Assembly: GCA_003695005.1 (NCBI GenBank)
Contig: RFJE01000010.1
Span: forward strand, 1 to 10,537
Length of the DNA: 10,537 nucleotides
Direction: 5' to 3'
Source of the DNA: Candidatus Hydrogenedentota bacterium
GTDB lineage: Bacteria > Spirochaetota > Leptospiria > Turneriellales > J094
Shown: one piece after another, positions 1 to 10,537 of the stretch
How positions within the stretch are numbered: position 1 is the stretch's first letter
Layout: each line of letters opens with the position of its first letter
Program-made: the position numbers and the translations under genes
The notes under the pieces: generated by a model
Database searches by the model: none
Seen by the model: only the letters and a program-made list of their open reading frames with translations
Told to the model about the DNA's origin: nothing

Positions 1-72
1 AACTTAAGCCAACCCTCGCGGTACAAGGATGTTCCCGCCAAACCTTACTTTATAAAACCTATTTTTTCTTGA
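1..72 (+). CDS. Possible C-terminal tail of an upstream gene (partial)
   Basis: Frame 1 is open from the window edge to a TGA at 70-72 and would encode 23 residues ending ...YKDVPAKPYFIKPIFS. The residue mix looks like a natural protein end, but frame 3 is open for about the same distance and the piece is too short to assign. The TGA overlaps the TTGACA of the next promoter. The alternative is plain intergenic DNA. No family is recognised. Confidence 0.25.
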   Translation, partial: NLSQPSRYKDVPAKPYFIKPIFS

Positions 73-97: not shown

Positions 98-213
98 TTA
101 ATGAATTAGATGAAGTGGATGGAAACATTGGTCTCATACCTTACCCCCCCTAAAAAAGGAGTAAAGTCAACAATTTTCGGTGAGGGGGAGGACTGTTTGA
201 GCACGAGCAGGCC

Positions 214-273
214 TTTTTTCCGTATTTTTAATGTTAATTCAGCGGTTCTCGGCGTTTTGCCGAGAACCGCTGG
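214..273 (+). repeat. 3' end of the dispersed repeat module, copy 1
   Basis: About 60 bases match the minus-strand sequence of copy 2 (around 6391-6450): a T6 run, then TTTTTAATGTTAATTCAGCG, then a hairpin ending GCTGG. Only a few substitutions and one or two small gaps separate them. Upstream of the T6 run the two copies look unrelated, and downstream of GCTGG homology stops at once. So copy 1 carries only the 3' terminus, in opposite orientation to copies 2 and 3. Confidence 0.75.
240..272 (+). repeat. Perfect hairpin, copy 1 of the module end
   Basis: Arms CAGCGGTTCTCGGC (240-253) and GCCGAGAACCGCTG (259-272) pair perfectly (14 bp) around a GTTTT loop. No T-run follows, so it is not a standard intrinsic terminator. 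It lies 11 bases before the proposed GTG start of the yidD-like gene and could hinder ribosome loading there, which is inference. Confidence 0.85.
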
Positions 274-283
274 GGTAAAGTAT

Positions 284-6359: not shown

Positions 6360-6390
6360 GAAGGAAAATTTTTATTTAGAGCTGTAAGCG

Positions 6391-6544
6391 CCAGCGATTC
6401 TCGGCGAAACGCCGAGAATCGCTGAATTAACATTAAAAACAGGGAAAAAACTAAATGTGTTGATTTTGCTTTACGTAGAGGTTCCCTGCGAGAAAGTGGT
6501 AATGTGATAACAGGTGTGAGTTCTAGAAGACGAATATGGAGGTT
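6391..6544 (-). repeat. Conserved 3' non-coding region of the repeat module, copy 2
   Basis: The stretch between the gene stop and the hairpin is clearly similar to the same stretch in copy 3 (10157-10341), about four bases in five by eye excluding one 30-odd-base indel. It contains no reading frame of note. Conserved blocks include (plus strand) GATTTTGCTTTA, AGAAAGTGGT, AGGTGTGAGTT and ATTAAAAACAG. CAGGGAA (6440-6446) can pair with TTCCCTG (6482-6488). It may be a structured 3' UTR, a small RNA, or DNA sites for the encoded protein. Confidence 0.7.
6392..6424 (-). repeat. Perfect hairpin, copy 2 of the module end
   Basis: Arms CAGCGATTCTCGGCG (6392-6406) and CGCCGAGAATCGCTG (6410-6424) form 15 perfect pairs around AAA (TTT on the element strand). 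Relative to copy 1 one stem pair differs by a compensating double change (G-C versus A-T), and the loop region also differs. Flanking GAATTAACATTAAAAA is shared. No T-run follows in either direction. Confidence 0.9.
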
Positions 6545-7225
6545 TTACCCATCCCGTTGCCGCTTCGGTGGCCGCCACACCGTAAAATAGCGTACTTCCA
6601 GGGTTTTTGGCCTATCCGAGTCTATGTATTTTCCATAGCTATGCTCTAACAAAAACCCTCGCAGGTGCATGTACCACCCTTCTGTAGGTTTTCCCCCTTG
6701 CGTCAGCAGCAACTTATGTACGAGGAGCTCTAAATACATCCGCAGTGCAATATCCGCTAAATGAGACGCTGATATTTTCAAATTCCGCGACTTCGTCTGA
6801 ATATAATTCCACAGTTTTTGCTTGCAGTACGTATACACAGTGGCATAACTGTAGCGCTTATCGTTATATTGATGATTCGCTTCATGCGTTCGGCTATTGG
6901 CTTTAAGTTTTGGCAGCAGCCTAAAGATGCAGGCTAAAATCAACTCGGTTTCATTTACGGCGATTCCTGCTTTGCGAAGCTTGATTGTGTAGTGCTTTAA
7001 GCGGCCAGCTGTGAAGTTTGGTAATGTCATGCTAGATTTCGACATTGGCACGTAGGGTGAGTTATCGTTCACCTTTTGTTTACGTTTCTTTTCTAATATC
7101 TCTTTTTGTAGGTACGCATACCGTGCAATTTTAATTTTTAGCGTAGCTTTCCTTCGATTATTCTTTGCATTACTAGGATGCTCACTTTTTTTGTCTTTGC
7201 GGTATTGTTCGTATACTTTAGACAT
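6545..7225 (-). CDS. Repeated basic protein of unknown function
   Basis: A 226-residue protein, family not recognised. ATG 7225 is preceded by AGGAGG (7231-7236) with 5 bases between, the strongest ribosome site in the window. Residues 1-55 are very rich in Lys/Arg (for example KNNRRKATLKIKIARYAY, EKKRKQK) and probably helical. Two later segments, HYTIKLRKAGIAVNETELIL (about 78-97) and LKISASHLADIALRMYLELL, have the strand-helix-helix feel of ribbon-helix-helix or similar small DNA-binding folds; that is an impression, not a match. The C-terminus is Arg-rich (WRPPKRQRDG). There is no HUH, DDE, tyrosine- or serine-recombinase, HNH or reverse-transcriptase motif. The last 64 residues recur at 10342-10536 with 5 changes. 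Its codon pattern between copies is conserved as in a working protein. It sits divergently between host operons with its own promoter. Confidence 0.75.
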   Translation of the reverse strand: MSKVYEQYRKDKKSEHPSNAKNNRRKATLKIKIARYAYLQKEILEKKRKQKVNDNSPYVPMSKSSMTLPNFTAGRLKHYTIKLRKAGIAVNETELILACIFRLLPKLKANSRTHEANHQYNDKRYSYATVYTYCKQKLWNYIQTKSRNLKISASHLADIALRMYLELLVHKLLLTQGGKPTEGWYMHLRGFLLEHSYGKYIDSDRPKTLEVRYFTVWRPPKRQRDG

Positions 7226-7251
7226 ATTTTCCTCCTAATGGTGTTTGTTAT

Positions 7252-7282
7252 ATAATACCAAAAAGGGGTTATTTTTTTCAAA
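7252..7282 (-). promoter_or_regulatory. Promoter of the repeated gene, copy 2
   Basis: On the minus strand TTGAAA (7277-7282) is followed after 19 bases by TATTAT (7252-7257), inside a TATTATATAA run. This leaves a leader of about 20 bases carrying the AGGAGG site. The spacer is slightly long. The design, with a leader and a strong Shine-Dalgarno site, differs from the neighbouring host genes. Confidence 0.45.
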
Positions 7283-7368
7283 TCTTAAGACATTACTTTA
7301 AATAAAATTTCAAAATGGTAAAAAAATACCTAAAAATAAGACATAATCCCTTGATTTTTTTTCGAGCG

Positions 7369-7389
7369 AGGGAAAGATTAAGCGCTTAC
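7369..7389 (+). repeat. 21-base exact repeat, site A (inverted partner at 10208-10228)
   Basis: The 21 bases begin AGGGAAAGATTAAG and end GCGCTTAC. They occur again, reverse-complemented on the plus strand, at 10208-10228, with no further extension on either side. The core AAGCGCTT is a palindrome, and here the block is framed by GCGAG and CTCGC, which can pair. Site A lies upstream of the copy 2 gene, while its partner lies in the 3' region of copy 3. So relative to the module direction the two are inverted, as terminal inverted repeats would be. Confidence 0.7.
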
Positions 7390-7413
7390 TCGCACAGGCT
7401 CCTAAGTGCTTTC

Positions 7414-7437
7414 TTGACATGGTACTACCCCTATAAA
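7414..7437 (+). promoter_or_regulatory. Promoter elements of the SDR-PopT operon
   Basis: TTGACA at 7414-7419 and TATAAA at 7432-7437 lie just before ATG 7447. The 12-base gap is too short for both to serve one standard promoter, so one of the boxes may be fortuitous. Either way transcription would begin within a few bases of the ATG, and no Shine-Dalgarno site is present. Confidence 0.35.
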
Positions 7438-7446
7438 AAGAAACCT

Positions 7447-8211
7447 ATGCTTCTTTCAAAGAAAACATTTATTGTTACAGGCGGAGCTTCGGGACTAGGG
7501 GCTGCTTGTGTTCGCAAGTTACGAGACTCTGAAGCGAATGTGGTTATTGCAGACTTAAATGAAGAAGGCGCTAAAGTAGCGGAAAATCTCGGCAGCAATG
7601 TTATGTTTGTAAAAACCGATGTTGCTTCTGAAGATGATGTAAAAAAAATGCTCGATAAAGTAGAGGAAACATTTGGAGATATTCATGGGGTTGTACAGTG
7701 TGCAGGCATTGCTACAGCTGCTCGTATTTTAACCCCTAAGGGGCCTCACTCTCTCGAGTTGTTTGAAAAAACAATTCGAGTCAATTTAATTGGTACATTT
7801 AATGTAATGCGTTTAGCAGCAGAAAGAATCGCGAAACATGATCCTGCAAAAGATGAGGAGGAGTGCGGAGTTATTATCAACACTGCTTCGGTGGCGGCAT
7901 TTGATGGACAAATTGGCCAAGTCGCTTATAGTGCTTCGAAAGGTGGTGTAGCAGCAATGACATTACCCGCAGCACGGGATTTAGCACGCTATAAAATACG
8001 AGTTATGACGATTGCTCCCGGTACTTTTTATACACCCATGCTAGCGAAGTTACCCGAAAAAGTACGGATTGCGTTAGAAAAGTTAACTCCATTTCCACCA
8101 AGGTTAGGTCGTCCAGATGAGTTTGCCAACCTTGTTTTAAGCATTATTCAAAATCCTATGCTAAATGGAGAGGTAATTCGTATTGATGGCGCTTTACGAA
8201 TGCCTCCATAG
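7447..8211 (+). CDS. SDR oxidoreductase, type II 3-hydroxyacyl-CoA dehydrogenase-like (HSD10 family)
   Basis: A 254-residue protein from ATG 7447; the frame is open further upstream (to 7315), but that part runs through the 21-base repeat and promoter and is not SDR-like. The Rossmann NAD-binding motif TGGASGLG sits near residue 10. DLNEE follows strand 2, whose Asp favours NAD over NADP. The catalytic set is visible in [23 protein letters not shown] (Ser, then YSASK). The APGTFYTPM and [12 protein letters not shown] segments are typical of the HSD17B10/type II 3-hydroxyacyl-CoA dehydrogenase branch, which oxidises 3-hydroxyacyl-CoA in beta-oxidation and related steps. It is followed 11 bases later by the PopT-type transporter gene, with no obvious functional link. 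The family is certain; the substrate is inferred. Confidence 0.85.
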
Positions 8212-8222
8212 GGATTACAATC

Positions 8223-9359
8223 ATGAAAAAACTTCATAAAAAGCTCGGGCTTTTTTTACGTGGAATTGCGATGGGGGCAGCAGACATTATTCCTGGTGTT
8301 TCCGGCGGTACTATGGCTTTAATTACCGGCATTTATGATCGCCTGATTGATGGATTAGGAAATTTAAAATTACAACATATTCCTCTTTTGTATCAGTATG
8401 TATTTTCAAAAGGCGAAAAAAAACAGCAAGCAAAAAATGAAATACAAAAATTAGATTGGGAATTATATTTTTTTCTGCCCCCCGGAATCCTTTTAGGCAT
8501 TGTTTTGATGTCATTTTTAATTCAGGTGCTACTCCAAGATTACACTGCTCAGACGTATGCTTTCTTTTTCGGCTTAATTTTAATATCCGCTACAGTTCCA
8601 TGGAAGTTAATGAATCATCGTATATTAGAATATACCATTTTACTCCTTTTTGCAGGTATAATGTTTTTTATATCCGGGATTAGTCCATGGAAAGATGCAC
8701 ATTTGTACCGGCAGGATGCGAATAAAAAAATGCATACTCTTAATTTATCTCGCGAAGGAAAATTTTCCCTGCCTTTCAAAGTACAGAATTTACAAGAAGG
8801 TGCTACTCTCATTTTAGTTATGTCGAATCATAAATATTATTATAAAATAGACGGCAAGAAAATTATCACAATGAATCCAAACTCTCCCGAAGTTTTTCTT
8901 CGCCAAAAAGGCAATAAGCTTACCGGGGTAATTGCCCTAAAATCGAATCACAGTTACCCTGTTATATTTTTAAGTGCGGCGGTTGCCATATGTGCCATGA
9001 TTCTTCCGGGTATATCGGGTGCTTATATTTTAGTTCTTTTTGGACAATATGCTTTTATATTCCAAGCTCTCCATTCTTTCCATATTCCTGTGTTAATGGT
9101 TTTCTTACTAGGCGTGATTGCGGGCTTATTTAGCTTTGTTCGTTTATTAAAATTGCTCTTGCATCGGTATCACTCTTTAACCATGGCGGCACTCACCGGA
9201 ATTATGATGGGGTCTTTGCGGAAACTATGGCCTACGAACTATGAAGTGATCGATGCACAAAATATTTACTCTGTTATCGCTGCTGGTATTTTGGGGATAG
9301 TACTTGTACTCATTTTAGAGTATGGAAGTCAATACTTCCAGAAAAGAGAGTTGAATTAA
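8223..9359 (+). CDS. DUF368-family membrane protein (PopT-type polyprenyl-phosphate transporter)
   Basis: A 378-residue protein. ATG 8223 follows a TAGGGA Shine-Dalgarno-like site overlapping the SDR stop. The two DUF368 hallmarks are present: GAADIIPGVSGGTMALITG (18-36) and the inverted-repeat counterpart AMILPGISGAYILVLFGQY (258-276). DUF368 members were recently shown to recycle undecaprenyl phosphate across the inner membrane for cell-wall and surface-polymer synthesis. Roughly 7-9 hydrophobic segments are seen. This protein is longer than the usual 270-310 residues because of a hydrophilic, Lys/Asn-rich stretch at about 155-243, between the two halves. It includes SREGKFSLPFKVQNL and VMSNHKYYYKIDGKK and looks like a small beta domain. 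The gene ends 3 bases from the convergent SDR stop. Family confidence is high; the insert's role is unknown. Confidence 0.88.
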   Translation: MKKLHKKLGLFLRGIAMGAADIIPGVSGGTMALITGIYDRLIDGLGNLKLQHIPLLYQYVFSKGEKKQQAKNEIQKLDWELYFFLPPGILLGIVLMSFLIQVLLQDYTAQTYAFFFGLILISATVPWKLMNHRILEYTILLLFAGIMFFISGISPWKDAHLYRQDANKKMHTLNLSREGKFSLPFKVQNLQEGATLILVMSNHKYYYKIDGKKIITMNPNSPEVFLRQKGNKLTGVIALKSNHSYPVIFLSAAVAICAMILPGISGAYILVLFGQYAFIFQALHSFHIPVLMVFLLGVIAGLFSFVRLLKLLLHRYHSLTMAALTGIMMGSLRKLWPTNYEVIDAQNIYSVIAAGILGIVLVLILEYGSQYFQKRELN

Positions 9360-9362
9360 AGA

Positions 9363-10100
9363 TTACTGTGCGGTAAGTCCACCATCAATCACAATTGCCT
9401 GTCCTGTCATATACGAAGATAAATCACTTGCCATAAAGAGTACAGCCCCTGCAAGGTCGGTCGGAGTCCCCATCCTTTTTAAGGGGATAGAAGCACTTAC
9501 TTGTTCTTTTAGTTTAGGCCTGCTCGAAATCATTTTCGTCATATCTGTTTCAATAAACCCTGGGCAAAGAGCATTAACTCGAAACCCACTAGAAGCCCAT
9601 TCTAAAGCAAGGGACTTTGTAAGTTGTAACACAGCCCCCTTTGTTCCGGAATAAATACTTGCAAGAGGAGTTCCAATCATCCCTAAAACCGAAGATACAT
9701 TAATGATATTTCCACCTAGTTTTTTCTGTGCTTTATAGTATTCTTGGCACATCCGAAAAACACCTTTAAAGTTAATATCAATTATTTTTTCCATTTCATC
9801 TTCACGGATCCCTTTTGCTGGCGTATTTGATGCAACTCCTGCATTATTGACAAGCACATCAAGCTGGCCATGTTTTTGAATAATCGTCTGAATTGCTTCT
9901 TGGCAATCTTCTCGATTACGCACATTAAGCTTAATAGGATAGACTCCAATTTCTTTTAAAGGCGCAGCAGACTCTAAACTACTACCAGCACCATATACAA
10001 TCGACCCTGCTTCTCGAAATGCTTTTGCTAATCCAAAACCAATTCCCCTACTTGCCCCTGTAATGAGTACCGTTTTATCTTTTAAACCAAAATCAATCAT
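9363..10100 (-). CDS. SDR oxidoreductase, FabG-like
   Basis: A 245-residue protein from ATG 10100 (MIDFGLKDKTVLITGASRGIG). An in-frame ATG at 10136 would add 12 residues not typical of the family and overlaps the TTGACA box. Motifs in order: TGASRGIG (about 14-21), NNAG in DVLVNNAGVAS, then VSSVLGMIGTPLASIYSGTKG with catalytic Ser and YSGTK, then LCPGFIETDM, then a closing GQAIVIDGGLTAQ. This is a classical SDR close to 3-oxoacyl-ACP reductase (FabG) and to glucose/sugar dehydrogenase-like members. Because the gene stands alone, away from fab genes, a general NAD(P)H-dependent alcohol/ketone dehydrogenase is equally possible. It converges on the PopT-type gene. It has its own TTGACA box and no Shine-Dalgarno site. 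Confidence 0.87.
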   Translation of the reverse strand: MIDFGLKDKTVLITGASRGIGFGLAKAFREAGSIVYGAGSSLESAAPLKEIGVYPIKLNVRNREDCQEAIQTIIQKHGQLDVLVNNAGVASNTPAKGIREDEMEKIIDINFKGVFRMCQEYYKAQKKLGGNIINVSSVLGMIGTPLASIYSGTKGAVLQLTKSLALEWASSGFRVNALCPGFIETDMTKMISSRPKLKEQVSASIPLKRMGTPTDLAGAVLFMASDLSSYMTGQAIVIDGGLTAQ

Positions 10101-10130
10101 AACGTAAAGAAGGCAAATCGTTAGAGAGTT

Positions 10131-10136
10131 TGTCAA
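10131..10136 (-). promoter_or_regulatory. -35 box of the FabG-like gene
   Basis: TTGACA on the minus strand, 30 bases before ATG 10100. The -10 region is poor (CTTCTT at an 18-base spacing), so the promoter is only half supported. The spacing to the ATG matches that of the antiporter and the first SDR gene. The hairpin of repeat copy 3 ends 20 bases upstream. Confidence 0.4.
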
Positions 10137-10156
10137 TTAAGAAATAATCAATTCTC

Positions 10157-10187
10157 CAGCTTTTGCGGCGAAACGCCGCAAAAGCTG
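10157..10187 (-). repeat. Perfect hairpin, copy 3 of the module end
   Basis: Arms CAGCTTTTGCGGCG (10157-10170) and CGCCGCAAAAGCTG (10174-10187) form 14 perfect pairs around AAA. The ends (CAGC/GCTG) and the centre (GGCG-AAA-CGCC) match copy 2. The middle of the stem is different in sequence and one pair shorter, yet still fully paired. GAATTAATATTAAAAACAG follows as in copy 2. Confidence 0.9.
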
Positions 10188-10207
10188 AATTAATATTAAA
10201 AACAGAG

Positions 10208-10228
10208 GTAAGCGCTTAATCTTTCCCT
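10208..10228 (-). repeat. 21-base exact repeat, site B (partner at 7369-7389)
   Basis: Exact reverse complement of 7369-7389. It lies within the indel that separates copy 3 from copies 1 and 2, between the gene stop and the hairpin. Confidence 0.7.
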
Positions 10229-10341
10229 GTATAACGGTAAAAAAACTAAATTTGCCGGGATTTTGCTTTATACAGAGGTTGCCTGCAAGAAAGTGGTGAA
10301 GTGATAAAAGGTGTGAGTTTTAGAAGGTGGAAACAGCGGTT

Positions 10342-10537
10342 TTACCCATCCCGCTGCCGCCTTGGCGGCCGCCACACCGTGAAGTAGCGCACTTCGAGGG
10401 CTTTTGGCCTATCCGAGTCTATGTATTTTCCATAGGTATGCTCTAATAAAAATCCCCGCAGGTGCACGTACCACCCTTCCGTAGTTTTTCCCCCTTGCGT
10501 TAGCAGCAACTTGTGCACAAGGAGTTCTAAATACATC
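10342..10537 (-). CDS. Repeated basic protein, copy 3 (C-terminal part; runs off the window)
   Basis: The last 64 or so residues of a paralogue of the 6545-7225 gene, beginning MYLELLVHKLLLTQGG here and ending WRPPRRQRDG. The methionine at the edge is internal, and the gene continues beyond the window. Over about 195 bases I count roughly 21 differences from copy 2, but only 5 change the residue (Pro/Thr, Met/Val, Ser/Thr, Thr/Ala, Lys/Arg), all mild. The reading frame is intact. The function is unknown, as for copy 2. Confidence 0.75.
   Translation of the reverse strand, partial: MYLELLVHKLLLTQGGKTTEGWYVHLRGFLLEHTYGKYIDSDRPKALEVRYFTVWRPPRRQRDG

Follow-up and report, generated by a model that had tools for sequence, protein, structure and literature searches.

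A probable non-autonomous IS66-type cassette with a constrained cargo gene in a Turneriella-like spirochaete

Introduction

The terminal repeats of IS66 insertion sequences (ISs) are given in a passage of PMC11946415 as 20-30 bp long and starting with GTAAGCG, with direct repeats of 8 bp. IS66 members that carry passenger genes between ends starting with GTAAGCG (the tIS66 forms, e.g. ISPa75 with fosZ) are described in part of PMC12888890, and an exception, ISDge4, whose ends start with GTGACTAC and GTAACTGC, in part of PMC12898284. Mobile insertion cassettes (MICs) and miniature inverted-repeat transposable elements (MITEs), as presented in an excerpt of PMC3281130, have IS-type ends and no transposase, the former carrying a gene and the latter none; there, MICs are described with other IS families (Bacillus cereus is named, and IS231 appears in the reference list). 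Here we describe element A, present in two copies in a 10,537-nucleotide stretch of DNA (the window) that is the whole of contig RFJE01000010.1 (C257) of assembly GCA_003695005.1, Candidatus Hydrogenedentota bacterium, placed by GTDB in the order Turneriellales of the Spirochaetota. The genome comprises 2.19 Mb in 431 contigs and is 80% complete.

Element A is an inverted-repeat cassette with a constrained cargo gene, IS66-type ends and an unrelated hairpin nearby. Like the tIS66 forms, it has GTAAGCG ends with a cargo gene between them, and the 8-bp duplications of IS66 are present in two of five complete gene-less elements with such ends. Unlike those forms, it lacks tnpA, tnpB and tnpC, its cargo is a predicted DNA-binding protein and not a resistance gene, and its ends number dozens within one genome. 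With MICs it shares IS-type ends around a gene and the lack of a transposase, and it differs from them in that its cargo and non-coding ends stay constrained. The predicted fold of the cargo protein has a counterpart in TraY, the accessory protein of the F-plasmid relaxosome, which according to a section of PMC12117103 also has two ribbon-helix-helix motifs per chain. However, identity is 7-12% (VIA rows), the proteins described here are longer and have either an N-terminal helix or a C-terminal domain, and no relaxase or conjugation genes were seen in the window. A first-pass annotation had presented this DNA as containing an undescribed module, made of a gene for a basic protein, its 3' region and a terminal hairpin; 'undescribed' was an overstatement, because the ends of the element are of the known IS66 type.

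Results

Dispersed copies with common ends

Positions 6462-6740 and 10259-10537 of the window are 87% identical over 279 nt on the same strand and, as the first-pass annotation had noticed, adjoin different genes. These are two real copies, and the repetition is far beyond chance: the window protein has 34 matches in the genome, of which 24 pieces are 55-100% identical (A-type) and 10 are 28-32% identical, and the 21-bp end sequence occurs at 49 places with at most 3 mismatches, against none for the reversed control pattern. Internal stops are absent from 21 of the 24 A-type pieces. The pieces map to 21 places on 20 contigs; because contig ends cut many copies, and the 5' and 3' halves of one copy may have been counted separately, 21 is the upper figure for the copies recovered from this incomplete genome. 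Alignment of the copies showed defined ends, dispersal and unrelated flanks, in agreement with the mobile-looking character first proposed. Neither a restriction to the two window copies, nor the lack of a common boundary, nor a known chromosomal family in synteny was obtained.

The aligned copies have a constant order, from a 5' terminal repeat through a 5' non-coding region, the 226-codon gene and a 3' non-coding region to a 3' terminal repeat. The 21 bp at 7369-7389 find a perfect inverted match at 10208-10228, and the limits proposed earlier (6391-7225 and 10157-10537) give way to inverted-repeat elements at 6384-7389 and 10208-10537 (Table 1). The homology was correctly seen to be a real repeat, but its extension over the hairpin does not hold, copy 2 ending at its terminal repeat. 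In copy 1, the 3' terminal repeat is reduced to its outer 8 bp, with a fragment of another repeat (MITE B, see below) inside it; the 8-mers flanking this copy differ, leaving no target duplication there.

In four of the five copies inspected, a palindromic repeat with CCCTCACC...GGTGAGGG arms interrupts the gene at codon 149. A single clade of cut copies was rejected by an approximately unbiased test (p 1.8e-6), from which no conclusion was drawn, the alignment having 279 columns and rearranged rows. In the tree the cut copies do not cluster together, and codon 149 may therefore have been interrupted on more than one occasion, although these data are weak.

IS66 affinity

The ends of element A, of about 21 bp and starting with GTAAGCG, agree with the terminal repeats of an IS66-type non-autonomous derivative, and a gene other than a transposase lies between them, as in the definition of a MIC. 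Models of the IS66 transposase TnpC (PF03050) and of TnpB (PF05717) had no match in the source assembly, where an IS may lie in the missing part, and were positive in control genomes; IS66 transposase matches were found in 7 of 18 genomes of the order. An IS66 relic in genome G003, with two in-frame stops and without an 8-bp duplication, has ends whose first 13 bases match those of element A at 12 and 11 positions. Given IS66-type ends and no IS66 transposase in the assembly, we class element A as a non-autonomous IS66-type cassette and not as an autonomous IS66 insertion sequence. Overall, we consider it probable that element A is a non-autonomous IS66-type MIC of a Turneriella-like spirochaete.

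Five complete gene-less elements with A-type ends (256-289 bp) were present in the fetched contigs. Two of them (L181:4386-4655 and L123:1243-1521) have perfect 8-bp target duplications and the other three have none. No 8-bp target duplication was proved for any gene-bearing copy of element A: the only perfect match among 17 x 9 end pairs joined A ends on two contigs, and was dropped as proof, the overlapping contig parts being different.

Fold and family of the cargo protein

As the first-pass annotation had observed, the protein contains no recognisable transposase motif, and no Pfam, NCBIfam or PHROGs model matched it. Structure prediction gave for the 226-residue protein, as for the second family described below, a tandem ribbon-helix-helix model, in which a strand-helix-helix unit forming a two-stranded ribbon occurs twice per chain. 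The nearest PDB matches of both models are chains of the F-plasmid relaxosome; the comparison names only the complex, and we infer from PMC12117103 that these chains, E, F and G, are TraY. Other folds came below them with lower scores, namely the CRISPR-related 6oaw, AvtR (4hv0), DndE (4lrv) and single-chain Arc (1u9p). On the basis of the model, the window protein is predicted to bind DNA.

RHH_1 matched one relative at 16.8 bits, below its cut-off of 20.5, and not the window protein. DUF1564 (PF07600), which we take to be a Leptospira family with many copies, matched neither the window protein nor the other members tested, except for one weak match in a G012 relative (E 0.0087, 16.2 bits, below the cut-off of 25). 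The sequences of solved structures gave nothing below E 0.1. A search of a limited literature collection pairing DUF1564 with Leptospira found nothing; the passage of PMC3493377 on ribbon-helix-helix genes in Leptospira is a table of toxin-antitoxin genes. Titles and abstract openings in that collection contained nothing tying a ribbon-helix-helix cargo to IS66-type ends, which is not proof of absence.

Relatives and a second family

Within the order, relatives of the protein were found in 12 of the 17 genomes searched, with up to eight divergent copies in one of them (G014); outside it, none of 43 genomes had one. No relative was recovered from viral contigs with the two family alignments, or from plasmids with the window protein; in the named genome collection, the alignment of relatives retrieved 20 loci and that of the second family none.

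The second family is 24-27% identical, encodes 208 residues and has nine full-length open copies. Eight of these are flanked by inverted repeats of about GCGGCTACATTTTTGTGGAC, which differ from the ends of element A and lie 804-879 bp apart; the ninth (L084) has no such ends. No consistent target duplication was seen in the eight copies. Of the 14 places with this end sequence, 13 adjoin a gene copy and the other is close to a contig end. In genome G012, five dispersed copies (L165-L169) of a related gene of 190-200 residues, 87.5-91% identical and with unrelated flanks, have neither inverted repeats nor ends of the second-family type; their homology begins near an upstream GTAATAGTTATTAC palindrome and ends at about the stop codon.

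By eye, several family members that otherwise have little in common share a GGTATT(T/A)A-like block just upstream of the start codon (e.g. L193, L194, L200, L204 and window positions 7251-7260), which could be a promoter or operator.

Selection on the gene and its flanks

The ratio of nonsynonymous to synonymous substitution rates (dN/dS) among A copies was 0.03-0.34 (median 0.08, median dS 0.83, 31 of 45 possible pairs, those with fewer than 60 shared codons or undefined dS having been dropped). It was 0.07-0.18 in the second family (median 0.10, median dS 1.04, 34 of 36 pairs) and 0.07-0.10 in G012 (3 pairs from three of the five copies).

Non-coding conservation was gauged against the fourfold sites of the gene copies, in pairs that are not independent and with dS near saturation. 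The 3' non-coding region is 81% identical, against 57% for fourfold sites (medians of seven A copies; higher in 18 of 21 pairs), and the 5' non-coding region 70%, against 48% (four A copies). In the second family, the corresponding identities are 55% at fourfold sites, 85% and 75% in the terminal repeats, and 69% and 67% in the 5' and 3' flanks, from eight copies except for the 3' flank, where seven were used. Judged from these substitution patterns, the protein of element A is constrained, and its non-coding ends appear to be so too. For the 3' region as RNA, RNAalifold predicted no pair and Rfam gave nothing at gathering level, with one weak match (E 0.39, 20 bits against 76); no tRNA was found.

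The hairpin is a separate MITE

The hairpin repeat is an independent MITE, here called MITE B, separate from element A and lying beside and inside some A elements. A DNA search with window positions 175-275 placed it at 40 or more sites of the genome, counting that in the window, with 40 of 133 candidates scored. Complete copies, found at 21 of the 30 loci examined, are 142-170 bp long, with ends CAGC(A/G)ATTCTCGG and a hairpin on the right. A 9-bp target duplication with at most 1 mismatch is present in 18 of the 21 and is perfect in 15. Short, gene-less, with inverted terminal repeats, target duplications and many copies, it fits the description of a MITE. Longer copies have an extra inner hairpin (CCCTCACC...GGTGAGGG).

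Features 214-273 and 6391-6450 are MITE B right ends, and the former, first taken for a third copy of the module reduced to its 3' end, belongs to this repeat. Of 50 A-type terminal repeats, 7 lie close to a B end, compared with 2.0% of positions chosen at random on those contigs. Because the two are often nested, as with the B fragment inside the 3' terminal repeat of copy 1, the gene, the 3' region and the hairpin looked like one module. By eye, small nested repeats are unusually abundant in the host genome. Another repeat, whose arms are of the GGCGGGAAC/CCGCC type, was likewise noted by eye at window positions 1-50 and in flanks in L061, L063 and L081; it adjoins several elements.

Table 1. 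Position of element A, MITE B and related features in the window and, where a locus (L) is named, elsewhere in the genomes.
Feature	Position	Strand	Basis or remark
Element A copy 1, 1006 bp between outermost terminal-repeat bases	6384..7389	-	inverted repeats; alignment of copies
5' terminal inverted repeat, 21 bp	7369..7389	-	GTAAGCGCTTAATCTTTCCCT read on - strand; recurrence in genome
5' non-coding region, conserved, about 140 bp	7229..7368	-	alignment of 10 copies; exceeds fourfold-site conservation in 6 of 6 pairs
Putative promoter-like TGGTATTATA	about 7251-7260	-	by eye
Shine-Dalgarno-like AGGAGG	7231-7236	-	by eye
Gene, 226-residue basic protein (isoelectric point 10.1), modelled as tandem ribbon-helix-helix	6545..7225	-	genome matches; structure model; dN/dS
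3' non-coding region, conserved, about 100 bp	6447..6544	-	alignment; fourfold-site comparison; no RNA structure predicted
MITE B right-end fragment inside element A 3' terminal repeat	6392..6446	-	hairpin 6392-6424; inner border approximate, within shared TTTTTTCCC run
Outer 8 bp of element A 3' terminal repeat, GTAAGCGC	6384..6391	+	sequence
Element A copy 2, truncated by contig end to its 3' part	10208..10537	-	terminal repeat 10208-10228; gene part 10342-10536
Diverged B-like right end, just outside copy 2	10157..10207	-	hairpin 10157-10187; 10166-10205 88% identical to B part of copy 1; not among listed B places
MITE B copy, right part	175..272	+	hairpin 240-272; left end unlike consensus
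MITE B places	window 175-272; L054, L217-L245
Gene-less elements, 270-289 bp, with A-type IS66 ends	L181:4386-4655; L123:1243-1521; L105:780-1068; L106:5807-6086		inner GGGGGACACCCCC-like palindrome
Copies cut at codon 149	L062 near 4076; L064 near 98; L070 near 2994; L075 near 2742

Discussion

As a non-autonomous cassette, element A would depend for its movement, or would have depended, on an IS66 DDE transposase that acts on its ends in trans. Its cargo, with two TraY-like ribbon-helix-helix motifs per chain in the structure model, would bind DNA and might bind its own element, at the promoter and/or the conserved subterminal regions, as a regulator or accessory factor; this last is the weakest step of the mechanism. 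Such binding would account for the conservation of the protein and of the two non-coding ends despite the divergence of silent sites. A bolder proposal, which we hold to be unlikely, is that this order-specific tandem ribbon-helix-helix protein has come to serve two different kinds of short inverted-repeat element of one genome as a mobility factor that they encode themselves. It would bind the subterminal DNA of its own element and help a trans-acting transposase to select that element, in much the way that TraY places the relaxase at the transfer origin.

The main rival, possible if somewhat doubtful, is that the genes encode tandem ribbon-helix-helix regulators that benefit the host and form an expanded paralogous family in the order, each copy being kept by host selection, and that the inverted repeats are mobile sequence carrying some of them. 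In its favour, the related genes of the sister genomes, with the spread and number given above, lack strong flanking inverted repeats (26 loci, three fetched twice; weak repeats could be missed), which also speaks against mobility as a general property of the protein family. The copies truncated at codon 149 also have low dN/dS, which weakens the case for the whole protein being needed. Strong protein constraint in all three sets measured likewise suits regulators useful to the host. Nevertheless, conservation above that of fourfold sites in the non-coding ends and terminal repeats is left unexplained by host selection on the gene alone, and the copies are dispersed among unrelated flanks.

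It is improbable that the elements move themselves, the ribbon-helix-helix protein, or something unrecognised in it, being the mobility protein. The second family, for whose ends no gene-less copy was found, would be the most plausible case: its nine open copies, the inverted repeats around eight of them and the 13 of 14 end places beside a gene copy all point that way. To our knowledge, however, ribbon-helix-helix folds have no catalytic site, and the eight second-family copies show no consistent target duplication; A-type ends also occur on gene-less elements, and the protein is therefore not needed in cis there. A single module of gene, 3' region and terminal hairpin moving together is very improbable: both window copies adjoin such a hairpin, but as a general structure it is refuted by the separate places of MITE B with their own ends and 9-bp duplications, and the terminal repeat of copy 2 between gene and hairpin, and the small share of A-type ends near a B end, albeit above random, also speak against it.

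For the family, which is not recognised by any Pfam, NCBIfam or PHROGs model, the tandem ribbon-helix-helix model and the loci described here provide a first predicted fold and genomic setting. The cargo of a transposase-free element is expected to decay, whereas in element A both cargo and non-coding ends have been kept while silent sites are near saturation. Should the protein act on the element that carries it, element A would offer a simple and testable example of an element that has no transposase but encodes an accessory factor of its own.
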